From an uncultured Christensenellaceae bacterium (GTDB lineage Bacteria > Bacillota > Clostridia > Christensenellales > Aristaeellaceae), in assembly GCA_905234985.1 (NCBI GenBank), contig CAJOJQ010000038.1, positions 1 to 59,887 of the forward strand: a stretch of DNA of 59,887 bases, in the 5' to 3' direction. The position numbers and the translations under genes are program-made. The stretch's first letter is position 1; each line of letters begins with the position of its first letter. Under the pieces are notes generated by a model. That model searched no databases. It worked only from the letters and a program-made list of their open reading frames with translations, and had not been told where the DNA came from. Positions 16,342 to 21,741 of this stretch are shown here, piece by piece.

Positions 16342-17793
16342 TTATACCGCGATCCGCGCGTACCGATCGGAACCGATCACGTGCATCATGTTGCGGTAGG
16401 GGTCAAGCTCGCCCTCCATCACCTGGGAGAAGATGCGGGCGGAGCAGCCGGACACCAGCGCCACGCCCCGCTCGTTCATCTTCACGGGCTGCTGCTCGTT
16501 GCGGGACTGGACGTTCCAGAACACCACCCGGGGCAGCTTGTAGCCGCGGGCCTGATACTGGGCCTTGGCGCAGGCAAAGTTGGTCATGGAGGCGTTGGAC
16601 GCGCAAGCGTCAAACTCCATGTCGGAAACGATGTACAAAGTGGAGGGCAGCTCCTTCTGCGGCAGACGGTGCTGCACGGCGGTTTGCAGGATCAGGTCGA
16701 ACACAGCCTGCAGGTTGGTGTTGGCGCACTCGTTGAAAGTGCGGCAGAAGCGAACCTTCTCCACGATGTCGCGGCCCTTGATCTCCACCAGCCGGGGAGA
16801 CATGGAAAAAGTGATGAAGTGGTTGCGGAACGCGCCGCGGTTGCGCTCCGCGTAGTAGATCGCCAAAGACTGCGCCACGTCAGCAGGCAGCGGCTTGCCG
16901 CCCCAATACATGGAGCCGGAGCCGTCCGCCACCACCAGGGCGTTCTCATCCTTGGTAAAGTCCTCCAAAGCGTTCCAGGTCATATCCAGGGCCGCGCGGT
17001 CCTGCTCCTTGGCGTTGTAGGCCGCCTCCACGATCTCATAGGGCATCAGCGCGCCGACGTGCAGGGACGCCTTGCCCGCCTTCACCTGCTCCATGTAGGC
17101 GGAATAACGCGCCTGGTCGTTCCGCGCAAAGGCCCGGCGGTACTTGAACATGGCCTTGGAGGGCTGCTTGGCATAGTCGAAGGTATAGTCCCGCTCCCGC
17201 AGGTTGTTCTCCAGGATGCGGATACGCGCGCGCAGGGCGGACAGGGCCTTGCGGTAGGCCGCGTCGGTCAGGCCGAAGGCCTGGGCCAGATGCTTTGCCA
17301 GACGCACAGTGTCCGCGTTGGACGCGTTCACGGAGGGCATCCACTTGCCCAGCAGGGAAACCGGCTCGTCCTTGGAAAGGGCGGTCACATCCGCCTGAAA
17401 CTGCTCCCGCAGCAGGGCCTCCGCCTCCCGATGGGCCGGAGTGTCCAGCAGCGCCAGCACGTCGTCCCAGCGGCCATACTCCGCGATATAGGGCAGGTTG
17501 CGCACCAGAGAAGCCTTCTCGTTCCGCGCCAAATACCGCAGCAGGGTGCGGAACACACGGCGCTCGCCTAAGCCGCCGCGCACGTCACGGGCATAGAAGA
17601 GAATCTTCATGGCCAGGTCGGGGTTCTCGGCGTAAGCGCGCAGGAAGCGGGTCTCGATTTCCGCGTCGGTCCGGGCGCGCAGCGCACCGATGGTGGAAAA
17701 CAGGTTCAGACAGTCCGAACCGGTGGAGCGCAGGGTCACAGCGCCGTTCTCGGTCAGGGTCTTGTTGGCGTGGAGCTTTAACAGGTTCAGCAT
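16342..17793 (-). CDS. DUF2828/TROVE-type Ro-like protein with vWA domain
   Basis: 483 residues from ATG 17793, after AAAGGAGAG. The N-terminal ~275 residues are helical with features I associate with DUF2828 proteins, relatives of the TROVE domain of Ro60/Rsr: RDVRGGLGERR, LLGKWMPSVNAS and FARNDQARYSAYMEQVKAGK. The C-terminal half is a von Willebrand A domain with the MIDAS motif DGSGS (290-294) and a later DMEFD. Ro proteins are RNA-binding rings that hold structured or misfolded RNAs and Y RNAs. This gene lies 37 bases downstream of a tRNA-like RNA and an array of other structured RNAs on the same strand, a context that strongly suggests it binds them. The assignment is family knowledge; RNA binding here is inference. 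Confidence 0.8.
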   Translation of the reverse strand: MLNLLKLHANKTLTENGAVTLRSTGSDCLNLFSTIGALRARTDAEIETRFLRAYAENPDLAMKILFYARDVRGGLGERRVFRTLLRYLARNEKASLVRNLPYIAEYGRWDDVLALLDTPAHREAEALLREQFQADVTALSKDEPVSLLGKWMPSVNASNADTVRLAKHLAQAFGLTDAAYRKALSALRARIRILENNLRERDYTFDYAKQPSKAMFKYRRAFARNDQARYSAYMEQVKAGKASLHVGALMPYEIVEAAYNAKEQDRAALDMTWNALEDFTKDENALVVADGSGSMYWGGKPLPADVAQSLAIYYAERNRGAFRNHFITFSMSPRLVEIKGRDIVEKVRFCRTFNECANTNLQAVFDLILQTAVQHRLPQKELPSTLYIVSDMEFDACASNASMTNFACAKAQYQARGYKLPRVVFWNVQSRNEQQPVKMNERGVALVSGCSARIFSQVMEGELDPYRNMMHVIGSDRYARIAV

Positions 17794-17830
17794 GGAAATT
17801 CTCTCCTTTCCGGAAAAATGGTTGGACGTC

Positions 17831-17902
17831 AAGGCTCCGCGGGAATCGAACCCGCGTCTTCCGGTTTGGAACCGGTTGTGTTTCCATTCACACCAGGAAC
17901 CT
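17831..17902 (-). tRNA. tRNA-like RNA, anticodon CCA (Trp)
   Basis: 72-nt cloverleaf. Acceptor AGGTTCC/GGAGCCT (one G-U), D stem GTGT/ACAC, anticodon stem ACCGG/CCGGA with an A-A mismatch at the outer pair, loop TTCCAAA, T arm GCGGG-TTCGATT-CCCGC. Position 73 is T, unusual for Trp (normally G), and no CCA is encoded. It is the last RNA before the Ro-like gene. Confidence 0.8.
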
Positions 17903-17905
17903 AAG

Positions 17906-18700
17906 AAATAAGAAAACAGACTGAGAACTTGATCTGTTCCGTCCGCGTCGGCCGGCGTTGGCGCCGGTGTTCACACTGAGGATTAGTCAGTAGCGGACAT
18001 CAACACTGATTTTGTAAAAACCAGCAAACTCTTGCTTCAGGACCTCATAGATTTCCTTTGGGCACATTCTTCCTTGCGGGATTCAGAGATTGCGGTCTCT
18101 TAGAGTTGCACTTACTCGATACTTTCTCATATGTCGGCTTGCGGCCTTCATACGTGTTCATATTGCAGAACAATAAGTTGATTTTCTTTCCTGAAGCCGT
18201 ACACGCTTTGGCTGCATTTGCCGGATTTGAACCGACAACTTTCAAGGAGGAGTTGAACGCTCAGCCATTGAGCTAAAATGCTTGTGGACTGCGAGGTGTA
18301 CATTTACCATCCCTGTCTTTTGGACAAGGCCCAGAATTCGCAGCCCTGTTCGTCTTGCGGACTCCCTTCTGTCCTTCCGTCCCTTCCTTTGCAGATAAAT
18401 ACAGCACTCGTTCTCGCAAAACTCGCACCGTAGATCCATAAAACCTTCTCCCCTGTTTCCAGGTTAGGAACCCGGCGCTGTACCGCCGATCCCGATCCTG
18501 CCATACCCTCAGCAGTCGCCCTTGGGCAGAAAGGCAAAATCTGTGTTTATGGGTTTTCCGCTGAACTCGCCTTGCGGCAAGTCGGGACGAACATCCCTTT
18601 ATCCCCATCACTGGGTTTATCTCAAAGAGCCGAAACCACCCTTTTGAACAAATCCGTCGAAATCAGCGCCACCGCGGGAAGGTTTTGTTCACGGCGCCAT
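17906..18700 (-). ncRNA. Large ornate structured RNA with embedded tRNA (GOLLD/ROOL-like)
   Basis: About 795 nt lacking a credible protein gene but dense in hairpins. On the minus strand: a pseudoknot in which GCGCC/GGCGC (18697-18693 with 18670-18666) encloses TGAACAAA (18691-18684) that pairs perfectly with TTTGTTCA (18652-18645); a GCAA-loop hairpin (18565-18582); a GAAA-loop hairpin (18452-18463); a 7-bp hairpin (18311-18329); and a three-way junction closed by GTCCGC/GCGGAC (17998-17941) holding two perfect hairpins. Five hairpins share a CGCAA loop. A complete tRNA-like fold sits inside at 18212-18282. Size, pseudoknots, tetraloops and embedded tRNA recall the GOLLD and ROOL families, known near tRNAs and in phages. 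Ends are approximate. Confidence 0.7.
18212..18282 (-). tRNA. tRNA-like RNA, anticodon CCT (Arg), inside the large RNA
   Basis: 71-nt cloverleaf: acceptor AGCATTT/AAATGCA (outer A-A mismatch, 6 pairs), D stem GCTC/GAGC, anticodon arm TTCAA-CTCCTCC-TTGAA, T arm GTCGG-TTCAAAT-CCGGC. Position 37 is C instead of the usual purine. No 3' CCA. It is flanked on both sides by non-tRNA structured sequence. Confidence 0.75.
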
Positions 18701-18702
18701 GG

Positions 18703-18773
18703 CAACCTCTGCGGGAATTGGACCCGCGCTTCAGGAATGAGAATCCCGCGTCCTGCCGTTAGACGAAGAGGCT
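18703..18773 (-). tRNA. tRNA-like RNA, anticodon CTC (Glu)
   Basis: 71 nt: acceptor AGCCTCT/AGAGGTT, D stem GTC/GAC, anticodon arm CGGGA-TTCTCAT-TCCTG, T stem GCGGG/CCCGC with loop TCCAATT. The near-invariant U55 is replaced by C. No encoded CCA. It lies just before the large RNA in the transcript. Confidence 0.75.
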
Positions 18774-18783
18774 ATATGGAAAA

Positions 18784-18854
18784 CGGCCTGAATGGGAATC
18801 GAACCCACATTCCCGGATCGACAGTCCGGCGTTCTGCCATTGAACTACCAGGTC
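18784..18854 (-). tRNA. tRNA-like RNA, anticodon GTC (Asp)
   Basis: 71 nt: acceptor GACCTGG/TCAGGCC with an A2-C71 mismatch, D stem GTTC/GAAC, anticodon arm CCGGA-CTGTCGA-TCCGG (G37), T arm GTGGG-TTCGATT-CCCAT. No encoded CCA. Confidence 0.8.
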
Positions 18855-18860
18855 ATGAAC

Positions 18861-18940
18861 GAGGCACGTTTTTCTGCTGGAAGCGGAGCTTCCGAAATAC
18901 TTAAGAGGTATCTGCATGCGTTCTTTGCTGTACGTGCCTC
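18861..18940 (-). ncRNA. Small closed-stem RNA with anticodon-like arm (type 2)
   Basis: 80 nt, closed by a perfect 9-bp stem between its own ends, GAGGCACGT/ACGTGCCTC. Inside are ACAGCAAAGAA, a 6-bp arm AGATAC/GTATTT with the 7-nt loop CTCTTAA (would read as anticodon CTT), a hairpin GGAAGC-TCC-GCTTCC and an A-rich strand. It shares sequence with the RNA at 19207-19309 but lacks its T-like arm. The plan, an end-to-end stem plus tRNA-like parts, recalls bacterial Y RNAs bound by Ro proteins. Confidence 0.65.
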
Positions 18941-18950
18941 TTGGGGTGAA

Positions 18951-19023
18951 TGCACCTGGCAGGGTTCGAACCTGCGGCTCACGGTTTAAGGGACCGTTAC
19001 TCTGCCAACTGAGTTACAGATGC
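18951..19023 (-). tRNA. tRNA-like RNA, anticodon CTT (Lys)
   Basis: 73 nt: acceptor GCATCTG/CAGGTGC, extendable to 9 bp with flanking AT/AT, D stem ACTC/GAGT, anticodon arm ACGGT-CCCTTAA-ACCGT, T arm GCAGG-TTCGAAC-CCTGC. Position 33 is C where U is almost invariant, which would disturb the anticodon U-turn. No CCA. Confidence 0.8.
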
Positions 19024-19029
19024 ATGGAA

Positions 19030-19101
19030 TGCGTCTTAAGGGATTTGAACCCTTGGCTCCCTGGTTAAAAGCCAGGTACTCTTCCGCTGAGTTAAAGGCG
19101 C
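19030..19101 (-). tRNA. tRNA-like RNA, anticodon TTT (Lys)
   Basis: 72 nt: acceptor GCGCCTT/AAGACGC with one C-A mismatch and two more possible flanking pairs, D stem ACTC/GAGT, anticodon arm CCTGG-CTTTTAA-CCAGG, T arm AAGGG-TTCAAAT-CCCTT. Loop residues are canonical. No CCA. Confidence 0.85.
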
Positions 19102-19129
19102 ATGGTGCGCCGTCATCCGGCGCGATGAG

Positions 19130-19200
19130 AGGCCCGAATGGGAATCGAACCCATATACCCGGATTAACAGTCCGGAGTTCTCCCTTTGGACTATCAGGCC
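19130..19200 (-). tRNA. tRNA-like RNA, anticodon GTT (Asn)
   Basis: 71 nt: acceptor GGCCTGA/TCGGGCC, D stem GTCC/GAAC with one mismatch, anticodon arm CCGGA-CTGTTAA-TCCGG, T arm ATGGG-TTCGATT-CCCAT. Position 73 is T and no CCA is encoded. A 6-bp hairpin GCGCCG-GATGA-CGGCGC follows in the spacer to the Lys tRNA. Confidence 0.85.
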
Positions 19201-19206
19201 ACGGAC

Positions 19207-19309
19207 AAGGCACGTTTGTTTTGCTGGAAGCAGCCGCGCTTACGCGGGAGTCGAACCCGCTCCAAAATACGTGAAAGGTATTTCGCAGATTCTTTGCTGT
19301 GCGTGCCTT
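19207..19309 (-). ncRNA. Small closed-stem RNA with anticodon- and T-like arms (type 1)
   Basis: 103 nt, closed end to end by AAGGCACG/CGTGCCTT. Inside: a CGCA/TGCG arm, a 6-bp arm AAATAC/GTATTT with loop CTTTCAC (would read as anticodon TTC), a T-like arm GCGGG-TTCGACT-CCCGC, a small hairpin, then CAGCAAAACAAA. The closing stem, the ACAGCAAAGAA segment and the CTTCCAGCA segment are shared with the RNA at 18861-18940. It cannot form a normal tRNA acceptor because extra sequence separates the T-like arm from the 3' strand; the plan is Y-RNA-like. Confidence 0.65.
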
Positions 19310-19316
19310 TAGAAAG

Positions 19317-19388
19317 TAACCCCTGCGGGAATCGAACCCGCATCGCAGGATTGAAAATCCTGTGTCTTGACCGTTGGACCAAGGGGCC
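19317..19388 (-). tRNA. tRNA-like RNA, anticodon TTC (Glu)
   Basis: 72 nt: acceptor GGCCCCT/AGGGGTT (two G-U pairs at the end, two further pairs with flanking GT/AC), D stem GTC/GAC, anticodon arm CAGGA-TTTTCAA-TCCTG, T arm GCGGG-TTCGATT-CCCGC. No CCA. First RNA of the array. Confidence 0.85.
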
Positions 19389-19475
19389 ACGGTTTGGTTT
19401 GCCTCGGGGCTGCCTTTCCTCGGCTTTTCGCGCCGCCCGTTTTGTTCCGGTCGCGCTTTCCCTTTCGGCAAGCAT

Positions 19476-19481
19476 ACTATA
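19476..19481 (-). promoter_or_regulatory. Possible -10 box of the RNA array
   Basis: TATAGT on the minus strand, ~90 bases before the first tRNA-like RNA and after the WYL operon terminator. No convincing -35 element lies at the usual spacing, so an activator or another sigma factor may be involved. Confidence 0.35.
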
Positions 19482-19523
19482 ACATACCCGCAAATACACT
19501 TCCCGGAAAAAAAGTTGCGAACG

Positions 19524-19554
19524 AAAAAAAAGGAACGGGTTTTTTTCCGTTCCT
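19524..19554 (-). terminator. Rho-independent terminator of the WYL operon
   Basis: Minus-strand hairpin AGGAACGG/CCGTTCCT with an A-rich loop, followed by eight T residues. It separates the regulators from the RNA array. Confidence 0.85.
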
Positions 19555-19562
19555 CGCGCAGG

Positions 19563-20480
19563 TTATGTTTTCGCCTCCGGTGGGGTAAGCAGGGCCTGTT
19601 TTCCAATGCGTTCCCGCAAAAGCCGGATGAACCCCTCCGGCTCCGTAACGCGGATGGCGGGGCCGAAGGACAGGATGCGGATGAGGATTTCCGTTTCATC
19701 CTGCCTGTCGTACCTCAGGGTCACTCGATAGCCGTTTTCGTCCAGGCGCTTGGTTTCCTTTTCCAGGTGCGAAAAATGCAGCAGCACGCGCCGCATGGCG
19801 TTTCGCCTGTCCTTCAGCTCAAAGGTCACGCTGGCCAGCTCCCGGGCGTGTACGGGCATATCCACGTCCGTATAGGCCAGGCTGCAATCCGTGATTCTGC
19901 GCAGGTTCACGATCCACCGCCGTTTCCGTCCATCCGCCACCAGGCGGAAGCGGTCGTCCTTTTCGGAGTATTCGAGAAAGCGGGGCTTTACCGACAGCAT
20001 GAAATGAGCGCCCCGCCCGGAGGCGTAGCCGATATACAGGCAATGGTTTTCCCGCAGCGCCTCCAGGATCGTGCGGAAGTGGGCGATATAGGAAGGGTCA
20101 TGGTAAGGATCGCCGTCGGTATACCGGTCGTAATACACGATTTGATCCGGGGTAAACAGCGGCTCCACGTCCTCCAGGCCGGTTTCATCGGGAGAAAAAA
20201 GCTGAACCCGGGGATCGGCCAGGATGGCCTTCATCCAGCGCTTTTCCAGGGCGGTCAGGGGCATGGCGGGCGCGTCCAGCAGGGCACTGGACAAATCCCG
20301 GTGCAGCAGACGCCATTTTTCCCCCAGCAGGCCCTCCGGCATGGTGAGCAGGCTTTCCCCAAACGCCTGCTGCCGGATGATCTCGGTAAGGCGCTTGGAG
20401 GTCAGCGTGCCCTGAGAAGCCTGACGGAGGATGGCCGCCGTCACCTGATAATACGTTCCGTACATCTCATGAAACAGCAT
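19563..20480 (-). CDS. WYL-domain regulator, second of a pair
   Basis: 305 residues; a WYL-type protein by overall layout: an N-terminal helical region, then a beta-rich domain with ENHCLYIGYASGRG and a later FLEYSEKDDRFRLVADG, and a C-terminal extension (RVTLRYDRQDETEILIRILSFG) typical of WYL-C parts. WYL proteins are ligand-sensing transcription regulators; some control phage-defence and nucleic-acid-repair operons. Start ATG follows AAGGAGAAG. It overlaps the upstream WYL gene by 14 bases, so the two are translationally coupled, perhaps as a heterodimer. No clear helix-turn-helix was seen in this partner. Confidence 0.75.
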   Translation of the reverse strand: MLFHEMYGTYYQVTAAILRQASQGTLTSKRLTEIIRQQAFGESLLTMPEGLLGEKWRLLHRDLSSALLDAPAMPLTALEKRWMKAILADPRVQLFSPDETGLEDVEPLFTPDQIVYYDRYTDGDPYHDPSYIAHFRTILEALRENHCLYIGYASGRGAHFMLSVKPRFLEYSEKDDRFRLVADGRKRRWIVNLRRITDCSLAYTDVDMPVHARELASVTFELKDRRNAMRRVLLHFSHLEKETKRLDENGYRVTLRYDRQDETEILIRILSFGPAIRVTEPEGFIRLLRERIGKQALLTPPEAKT

Positions 20481-21690
20481 GGTCTTCTCCTTGATACAGG
20501 GCCGCCAAGGCGTGAAAGTCCTCCCAGAAGCGCTTCGTCACTTCCGGGTCGGTGCATTGAAGATCGGTGATCCGGCCCATAAAGGTGCGCAGCCAGGGCA
20601 GCGTTTCACGGGCGCTGTACACGTCGGCGGAGAAGCGCCAGTGGGTTTCGTCCACGCGCTCCACCGCGCCGCAGCGCTTTTCCCGCTCCAGCCTGTTCAG
20701 GATATGCTCCTCCCCGGGGGCAACGAACACGGTCATTTCCAGGCGCTCCGGTTTTCCGTAGTTATGGCCGGTAATGCCCCAGGCGTGGCGGCAGAATCTT
20801 TCCATTTTTTCCGGCAGGAAATCCGGCGTCTCAAACACGTCCCCCGCCTTCACCTCGTCCATCAGATCCAGCCGGTGGAAAGAAAAGCGCTGGTGGCGCG
20901 GGGACCAAACCAGCAGATACTGCCGTCCCGTCTGGCAGCCCACATAGATTTTCAGCGGCAGCGCGGTGGCCCACTGGCCCCGGATCAGGAACGTGACCAG
21001 CCGGTTTTCGCTCATGGCGGCAAACAGCGCCGCTAGGATCTCGCCGTCCAGGGCGTTGAGGATATAATGATGCTTGAAGCGAAAGCAGGAAAGCCGCGTT
21101 TCCATCCGATCCAGCACGTAGGAGCCGATCACGCCCAGGGGCGCGGCTTCGGAAAAGAACGCGGCGGCGGCGTCCCAGCTTTTCAGGTCCGTTTCACTGG
21201 GAGAAACGGAATAACAGGTTTCCCGGCCCCGCTTTTTGCTTTGCAGCAGGCCCAGGGAAACGTATTCCTTCAGTTTTTTCCGAACGGTGGATTCATCCGG
21301 CAGCTCGCCGTCATCGAATTCCGAAAGCCGGTCGGTCAGTTCCTCCATGATGGATGAGATGGGCAGGCCCTCCGAATCGGAAAGCATATCCAGCAAATGA
21401 AAGTGCAGCATGATATCCCGATCCGTAAAGGTTTTTGCCCGGAACGCCTGATAGAAGGGATTCTGCGGAACGGCCCGGCTGTCCACGGAAAGGAACACCC
21501 GCCGTCCTTCCGTGTCCTGTTCAAAGCGCATGTAGTCTCCCAGCCAGCTTTCCACCCGGCGGCGTTCGTTGTCGTAGCTCCGGGCGCTTTTCAGGTCAAA
21601 CTCGCCGCGATACCGGAACCCGTAAACATAAAAGGAGCGCAGGTATTCCCGGATGCTGCCGAAACTTTTGATCAGTTCGCTGTATGCCAT
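20467..21690 (-). CDS. WYL-domain transcription regulator, first of a pair
   Basis: About 407 residues from ATG 21690 after GAGGAGG. Residues ~85-165 look like a winged-helix unit (DIMLHFHLLDMLSD...STVRKKLKEYVSLGLLQ), followed by a WYL-type domain with KHHYILNALDGEIL, GCQTGRQYLLVWSPRHQRFSFHRLD and a WYL-C-like tail. It is transcribed toward the structured-RNA array and Ro-like gene, but a terminator lies between. Regulation of that array by this pair is a reasonable but untested idea. Confidence 0.75.
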   Translation of the reverse strand: MAYSELIKSFGSIREYLRSFYVYGFRYRGEFDLKSARSYDNERRRVESWLGDYMRFEQDTEGRRVFLSVDSRAVPQNPFYQAFRAKTFTDRDIMLHFHLLDMLSDSEGLPISSIMEELTDRLSEFDDGELPDESTVRKKLKEYVSLGLLQSKKRGRETCYSVSPSETDLKSWDAAAAFFSEAAPLGVIGSYVLDRMETRLSCFRFKHHYILNALDGEILAALFAAMSENRLVTFLIRGQWATALPLKIYVGCQTGRQYLLVWSPRHQRFSFHRLDLMDEVKAGDVFETPDFLPEKMERFCRHAWGITGHNYGKPERLEMTVFVAPGEEHILNRLEREKRCGAVERVDETHWRFSADVYSARETLPWLRTFMGRITDLQCTDPEVTKRFWEDFHALAALYQGEDHAVS

Positions 21691-21741
21691 GGCGCTCCCT
21701 CCTCTCCGGGCGTTTTCAGAATCTGGCAAAGGGATATCCCG

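Follow-up and report, generated by a model that had tools for sequence, protein, structure and literature searches.

The DUF2828/DUF7788 locus and its GOLLD-like RNA

The stretch of DNA analysed here (the window; 59,887 nucleotides, contig CAJOJQ010000038.1 of assembly GCA_905234985.1) comes from an uncultured Christensenellaceae bacterium whose habitat is probably the ruminant gut. Its minus strand holds a gene for a protein with DUF2828 and DUF7788 domains, preceded by an array of tRNA-like elements and two small end-closed RNAs, which belong to a family that we define here, the clamp RNAs, in which anticodon loops identical to those of the host tRNAs recur on otherwise variable hairpins. 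Read on the minus strand from 19555, the order is a terminator-like hairpin (19530..19555), an operator-like site (GTTCGCAACTTTTTTTCC, 19505..19522), a -10-like box (TATAGT, 19476..19481), tRNA-Glu(TTC) (19316..19388), clamp RNA A (19206..19309), tRNA-Asn(GTT) (19129..19200), tRNA-Lys(TTT) (19029..19102), tRNA-Lys(CTT) (18950..19024), clamp RNA B (18860..18940), tRNA-Asp(GTC) (18783..18855), tRNA-Glu(CTC) (18700..18773), a GOLLD-like RNA (conserved 3' part at 17918..18346) with tRNA-Arg(CCT) inside it (18209..18282), tRNA-Trp(CCA) (17831..17902) and the DUF2828/DUF7788 gene (16342..17793; 483 aa, ATG at 17793, stop at 16342-16344). The convergent gene downstream of the latter is AddB.

Two adjoining regulator genes of the WYL type lie upstream on the same strand. 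WYL1 (19563..20480), a WYL/WCX-type regulator, matches the WYL model of PADLOC with an E of 1.8e-9 and Pfam WCX with an E of 7e-5, just under the cut-off, while WYL2 (20467..21729) matches PADLOC WYL with an E of 8.7e-10 and has no Pfam match at 1e-3. The terminator-like hairpin stands after WYL1 and was obtained from a hairpin scan, and the -10-like box, identified by eye, lies 23 nt past the operator-like site in a layout similar to that of relatives; a consensus promoter scan of the region found no promoter.

A first-pass annotation of the window had described this run as eight cloverleaves, two end-closed small RNAs and a structured RNA of about 800 nt, bounded upstream by a terminator and followed after 37 bases by the protein. 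The eight cloverleaves (17831-19388) were recovered by both ARAGORN and Rfam RF00005, all over the curated cut-off (49.7-67.5 bits vs 29), and the distance to the protein was confirmed (last tRNA at 17831, ATG at 17793). The two small RNAs gave fold z-scores of -2.61 (19206-19309) and -3.98 (18860-18940), computed with their ends shifted by 1-3 bases, and have end stems of 7 and 9 bp. A terminator-like hairpin is present as well, but at 19530-19555, and such matches are no commoner in the region than in shuffles (4 vs a mean of 5.0). The long RNA is also folded (17903-18699, z of -2.70 with 20 shuffles), but it is a relative of a known type, and the eighth cloverleaf, tRNA-Arg(CCT), falls within the match to that type at 18209-18282 and thus is no separate item.

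The protein had been called TROVE/vWA-type. Its predicted model finds its best structure matches in Ro60/TROVE proteins (PDB 1yvr, 2i91, 2nvo and 9l5y), with the two-domain fold of Ro60, a HEAT-type ring plus a vWA domain, aligned over 381-412 residues at 10-16% identity. The DxSxS residues, of the MIDAS type, are invariant in 16 of 16 sequences. However, the Pfam domains are DUF2828 and DUF7788, and the TROVE profile of Pfam does not match up to an E of 1, so the protein is filed as a structural relative of Ro60/Rsr/TROVE proteins rather than as a TROVE member. NCBIfam returned nothing, nor did phmmer against PDB sequences (up to an E of 1), and PADLOC held no model for the protein up to an E of 0.01.

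For comparison, 80 genome loci and 80 viral loci with DUF2828 relatives were collected and labelled with L-numbers; several titles of metagenome-assembled genomes among the sources conflict with one another, which points to possible misbinning. The large RNA matches the GOLLD model (RF02032) at 17918-18346 over model positions 1-416, its full length, with 71.4 bits and an E of 4.6e-18, under the Rfam gathering score of 150. On its sequence it appears to be a diverged GOLLD and is called GOLLD-like, with the whole RNA probably spanning about 17903-18699. The combination of GOLLD with an inner tRNA, a tRNA island, clamp RNAs and DUF2828 recurs in L052 (69.7 bits; protein 95% identical) and in L061 (65 bits; 74% identical), where ARAGORN finds 14 genes of tRNA type within 3 kb upstream. 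At all three loci the RNA thus has the neighbourhood of a tRNA island and a tRNA in its linker, features already known of GOLLD from passages of PMC12286853 and PMC6582537, which also describe a pseudo-tRNA in the linker of Mycobacterium GOLLD. The full-length model match, the island and the tRNA in the linker are what the window RNA shares with the GOLLD described there; it differs in scoring below the gathering score, in standing beside a Ro-like gene and in not being a regular component of the system studied here. The idea that GOLLD generally accompanies DUF2828 was rejected, as outside the window only two of 16 sensitively searched loci (L052 and L061) have it. A bulk search of 50 viral records matched nothing anywhere and is therefore no proof of absence, and a bulk search of 49 genomes with strict filters gave one match, with L052 missed by these filters.

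The clamp RNA family and its inserts

Clamp RNAs have the form AAGRYRY-nnn-CAGCAA-insert-RYRYCTTG, in which a covarying end stem surrounds a variable insert, and they were first seen upstream of 21 relatives of the gene. In the window, clamp RNA A reads AAGGCACG..CAGCAA ... CGTGCCTTG and holds an anticodon-type hairpin and a T arm, and clamp RNA B reads GAGGCACG..CAGCAA ... CGTGCCTCG and was aligned with 12 other clamp RNAs. For a non-circular test of the pairing, the 5' half was taken by sequence alone and the matching 3' half was then sought. Upstream at the 80 genome loci, 137 of 152 5'-half matches have the exact partner, compared with a mean of 3.8 and a maximum of 9 for mismatched partner types in 200 draws. 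Over the 862 kb of these loci, the strand opposite to the gene has no copy of the 5' motif; the gene's own strand has 159, of which 152 lie upstream of the gene. At the 80 viral loci, 78 of 110 5'-half matches have a partner (mean of 1.4 for the control), with four matches on the opposite strand.

The detection rules were tuned during the reading of the loci. A narrower rule for the tail gave 169 clamp units at 68 of the 80 genome loci and was replaced by a wider one, with which 249 units were detected at 77 of the 80, where 14.9 units are expected from background. Each locus carries one to nine units, and the distance from the last of them to the point where the protein match begins is often 20-60 nt. 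Among the three loci left over, L060 and L068 have 51 and 2 upstream bases, respectively, and L123 has units that look degenerate by eye. Clamp RNAs are also present at 53 of the 80 viral loci. In a family genome set of 150, the clamp pattern occurs in five of the 21 genomes with DUF7788 and in none of the 129 without it, and this genome matches the pattern AAGGCACNNNCAGCAAN{56,86}GTGCCTTG at a single place, clamp RNA A. The association also holds in the other direction: 80 viral stretches found by the clamp pattern alone have a DUF2828 relative in the fetched DNA in 45 cases and elsewhere in the record in 10 more, the background rate of DUF2828 being 1.3% of phage records.

Clamp RNAs with proteins 61-73% identical were also observed in L064, L067, L085 and L101, titled Thermoguttaceae, Planctomycetales, Aeromonadales and Chloroflexi, which may reflect misbinned contigs or transfer.

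The inserts are frequently tRNA-like, and a T-loop motif occurs in 56 of the 169 units of the narrower rule, where 2.2 are expected. Three architectures were distinguished among the 249 units. In the first, with 30 units, the insert is a cloverleaf in tRNA order; in an alignment of 17 such units the clamp, D, anticodon and T stems are all seen, both partners have changed in 10 of the 21 pairs, and four of five whole-structure measures, the covariation score among them, were reached by none of 500 shuffles and the fifth by nine. The second, with 13 units, has the permuted order of T arm, acceptor hairpin and D arm that is the layout of YrlA, and the YrlA model (RF02553) matches two such inserts of L067 with E values of 4.7e-5 and 6.8e-5 (32-33 bits; gathering score 69 bits). 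The third comprises short units, some of them just a clamp and a hairpin, and 70 units of 70 nt or less have no T or D arm. In addition, a recurring insert type with TGAATAGGCTA...CTGAACCTTATCA was observed in clamp units of L074 and L076.

The first-pass annotation had likened the two small window RNAs to Y RNAs, but no Rfam Y RNA model matches them. RF02553 does not match either one up to an E of 5, and the sole weak YrlA match in the window (19.6 bits) runs across the two tRNA-Lys genes. With YrlA the family shares an end-closed stem around a tRNA-like module beside a Ro-like gene, as in the two L067 clamps that hold the YrlA module itself, though not every insert is tRNA-like; the window RNAs differ from YrlA in their clamp sequence and in having anticodon arms.

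Anticodon loops of clamp RNAs and array tRNAs

All hairpins of 5 bp with 7-nt loops in 251 clamp units were compared with the 35 distinct anticodon loops of 38 host tRNAs encoded outside the window; all reference loops thus come from one genome, that of the window's host. An identical loop was found in 35 of 244 clamp hairpins, with 13 different loops and 29 different 17-mers. Shuffled units gave a mean of 0.15 such loops (at most 1 in 100 shuffles), shuffling of the loop letters gave 0.7 (at most 4 in 200), and in the bodies of DUF2828 genes, used as a further control, only two of 521 hairpins have a host-identical loop. Seven host-identical loop hairpins were likewise found in 81 distinct viral units, where 0.01 are expected. 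The commonest loop, CTTTTAA of tRNA-Lys(UUU), occurs ten times. Its stems are related in the window's clade (GATAC/AATAC-GTATT, six cases) and differ elsewhere (AATCA/TGATT, TATGA/TCATA, CAAGA/TCTTG and CATGA/TCATG), suggesting that the loop is kept while the stems change. Bacillus phage FADO, which infects B. subtilis BEST7003, also has three candidate clamps ahead of its DUF2828 gene, one of them, recognised by eye, with the hairpin ACAAT-CTTTTAA-ATTGT. Both window clamps carry host-identical loops, CTTTCAC of tRNA-Glu(UUC) in clamp RNA A (hairpin at 19266..19282) and CTCTTAA of tRNA-Lys(CUU) in clamp RNA B (18896..18912), which are 7-nt loops in the minimum-energy folds.

These loops bear on the reading of the clamp RNAs as ordinary Y RNAs of a DUF2828-type Ro protein, in which the tRNA-like inserts would gate the protein or tether it to a nuclease or to tRNA-modifying enzymes, with no role as nuclease decoys. 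The YrlA module in clamps and the permuted arm order of the 13 units speak for it, as does the Deinococcus Y RNA that tethers Rsr to PNPase according to passages of PMC7790460. It is nevertheless rather unlikely, leaving unexplained both the 13 kinds of anticodon-identical loops on differing stems and the arrays of up to nine units.

The ribosomal A site can accept an anticodon stem-loop, and the hairpins might accordingly dock in ribosomes whose A site is vacant because the tRNA that they await has been cut, and so bring in the Ro particle. Ribosomes have been reported to bind GOLLD in pull-downs, in a passage of PMC12286853, which would fit such a tether, but at least 216 of the 251 units have no hairpin bearing any of the 35 reference loops, and we consider the tether very improbable.

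The free-standing tRNAs of the array show the opposite arrangement. Their anticodon loops differ from that of the host isoacceptor in six of seven comparable cases, no host tRNA-Asn having been found for comparison. Individual oddities include C at position 33 in tRNA-Lys(CTT), C at position 37 in tRNA-Arg(CCT), C at position 55 in tRNA-Glu(CTC), a T73 discriminator in tRNA-Asn(GTT) and in tRNA-Trp(CCA), the host tRNA-Trp having G73, and one acceptor mismatch each in tRNA-Asp(GTC) and tRNA-Lys(TTT). U33 or R37 is lost in two of the eight array tRNAs and was flagged in none of the 38 host tRNAs. By the checks used, six of the eight array tRNAs deviate, compared with 10 of the 38 host tRNAs, but several of the host deviations are mild, and little weight is therefore placed on the array tRNAs being degenerate. 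The last tRNA, 37 nt before the gene, has the anticodon CCA in the window and TCA in L052, so that this position drifts even among genomes that are nearly identical.

Such tRNAs could form an island of spares, in which the free tRNAs replace cut Lys, Glu, Asp and Asn tRNAs and the clamps serve only for processing or punctuating the transcript. Phage tRNAs with altered anticodon loops have been reported as spares in passages of PMC10264068 and PMC11455837, and both the altered loops of the array tRNAs and the tRNAs found within 6 kb of DUF2828 at 42 of the 80 viral loci resemble them; the unlinked arrays described below, which an operator-like site leads, also carry Lys, Asn, Glu and Asp tRNAs. 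The clamp RNAs hold unaltered loops, contrary to the phage tRNAs of these passages. Against the island of spares, ARAGORN detects no tRNA on the strand of the gene within 3 kb upstream, or within the shorter sequence available, at 48 of the 80 genome loci, and the array tRNAs have changes such as U33C, R37C and T73 and encode CCA in only two of eight cases (29 of 38 in the host). As an account of the whole locus, the island of spares is therefore quite improbable.

The operator-like site, RtcB and a proposed tRNA-damage regulon

A site of the GTTCGCAACTTTTTTTCC type lies upstream at 62 of 75 loci with at most three mismatches (25 background matches in 1.16 Mb), and the window copy is the sole one in this genome at two mismatches or fewer. 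At 13 of the 62 it stands 55-65 nt before the first clamp unit (narrower count), and a -10-like box often follows. Homologues of the WYL regulators are present at 47 of the 80 genome loci, on the same strand at 33 of the 62 with enough upstream DNA. The exact site occurs in seven of the 21 family genomes with DUF7788 and in one of the 129 without, and this single genome has a WYL pair, the site and a piece of RtcB. RtcB itself was detected at 37 of the 80 genome loci, no more than 1.5 kb downstream in 25 of the 63 with enough DNA.

In 19 chosen genomes, 32 operator-like sites were found, and 28 of the 30 examined are followed, within the stretch read, by clamps, tRNAs and/or DUF2828, many of these being known loci. 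Ten sites lie away from any known DUF2828; behind eight of these stand clamps and/or tRNAs, the latter for Lys, Asn, Glu and Asp. In one genus, three genomes have the DUF2828 gene and the WYL-plus-array on separate contigs, each with its own copy of the site. One exception is Oscillibacter valericigenes (L394 3867-8877, minus strand), with a WYL pair, the site, an SPFH/Band-7 protein and RtcB and no DUF2828 there; the other is L367, in which nothing but short open frames, the one measured being 87 aa long, follows an exact site close to where the contig ends. RtcB stands beside the site in L394, L400 and L401. In L401 (minus strand), a further copy of the site at about 2300-2317, after RtcB, leads an open frame whose motif presumably marks it as similar to ADP-ribosylglycohydrolase.

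The position of the RNA elements between promoter and gene would also suit a regulatory leader that senses the state of tRNA in cis and controls the DUF2828 gene in the manner of a T-box. Yet for some operator-led arrays the DNA read further on contains no DUF2828, the ends of the units are closed by stems and the array in the window gave no T-box match, so that such a leader is hardly probable at all.

We consider that the locus is probably one transcription unit under predicted WYL control, which joins a protein of predicted Ro60-like fold to tRNA look-alikes and in which the clamp RNAs serve as anticodon-loop decoys against tRNA-cutting enzymes. The locus type is best read as a tRNA-damage regulon, with a logic akin to that of the Salmonella rsr-yrlBA-rtcBA operon and with an array of anticodon-loop decoys. 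The inducing signal would be tRNA damage or attack, and the two WYL regulators are predicted to switch on the locus by way of the one operator-like site that precedes it. The CAGCAA-flanked clamp may be the binding site of the Ro-like protein, as the end stem of Y RNA is for Ro60, and this protein would carry clamp hairpins whose native loops would titrate or sense anticodon nucleases. The free-standing tRNAs with altered loops could be cleavage-resistant spares or further decoys, and GOLLD may travel with the array as a passenger or serve in its packaging. Cut tRNAs would be rejoined by RtcB at the loci that have it; no match to RtcB was found in this genome, which is 92.7% complete, so here the cell would have to rely on protecting and replacing its tRNAs. 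The wider proposal, that the genomes of bacteria and phages store whole collections of anticodon-loop decoys on Ro-bound clamps, each clamp with the hairpin of one or another tRNA, induced by attack and joined in one regulon by altered-loop spare tRNAs and RtcB, seems to us about as probable as its contrary.

The first-pass annotation had also proposed that the protein and the RNAs belong to a single system with a possible role in the repair, decoy or supply of tRNA under attack, and this is supported by the clamps at 77 of 80 relatives, the operator-like site at 62 of 75 loci and its copies that lead such RNAs at unlinked places, the RtcB neighbour at 37 of 80 and the host-identical anticodon loops. 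Homologues with the protein but never the RNAs, which it had named as the counter-case, are not what was found overall; they are represented by a second DUF2828 paralogue clade and by 27 of the 80 viral loci, in which no clamps were recognised by the rules used.

These two groups weigh against the decoy proposal, as do several other points. The paralogue clade is present in this genome too (contig C27), and three of four named phages have the protein but no convincing clamp by the same rules. Units without a reference loop (at least 216 of 251) and units without a recognised T or D arm (153 of 249) are so numerous that decoys do not explain every insert. The clamp units are related by descent, and the counts therefore overstate their independence; in the clade of the window, inheritance accounts for part of the Lys-type loops, and among the seven viral loop hairpins one is counted twice, from the related contigs L178 and L180. 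Salmonella YrlA is reported not to be cut by nuclease (in a passage of PMC7790460), and the clamps could likewise stay uncut. RtcB was not found in this genome, as noted, nor at the 80 viral loci as fetched, and a trade-off between RtcB and free tRNAs, that is, between repair and replacement, was unsupported (Fisher p of 0.41).

Among known systems, the Salmonella operon is a close parallel in the passages of PMC7790460: it has a Ro protein, tRNA-mimic Y RNAs and RtcB, cleavage of tRNAs switches it on, and the authors of that paper suggest that YrlA might compete for anticodon nucleases. It is governed by RtcR, whereas WYL regulators and a shared operator-like site are found here, and the present system differs further in its DUF2828 rather than TROVE sequence, in its up to nine clamps, in its anticodon arms with native loops and in the free tRNAs and GOLLD. 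RtcB, encoded together with Ro and Y RNA in that operon, was found at 37 related loci and not in this genome. Passages of PMC7824862 describe ROT/TROVE proteins as a platform for RNA repair with a tRNA-like partner. On the roles of bacterial Y RNAs and phage Ro proteins, the passages of these two papers give only hints, of nuclease competition and of a repair platform, respectively. Among the papers listed by searches of open-access PMC we recognised none on a DUF2828-RNA array, on Ro-carried anticodon-loop decoys or on GOLLD with Ro, which is no proof of absence.

In the clamp RNAs, the mimicry extends to the anticodon loop, which is what the nucleases attack, and the clamp stays constant while the loops that it holds vary. 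Letter-perfect loops on unrelated stems, in arrays and with an operator shared with RtcB, make the decoy idea sharply and cheaply testable, and Ro proteins and RtcB are joined in one picture with GOLLD and the tRNA islands of phages. If the proposal is true, the loop repertoire would read out which tRNAs a lineage must defend. The clamp and the operator together also provide a sequence signature with which further members can be found.

Two minor observations concern relatives of the gene itself. In Listeria phage LP-048 (L397 6843-8054), a ligase annotated as RtcB-like follows the DUF2828 gene at a distance of 1.3 kb, and several tRNAs lie around that gene, with no clamp by the rules used. 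In the second paralogue clade, a conserved structured RNA of about 330 nt lies in front of the gene (L030 10728-11060, minus strand, and eight further sequences, alignment A2); Rfam gave no match at that place in L030 or L034, and RNAalifold predicted 62 pairs from the nine sequences, 29 of them with at least one compensatory change.

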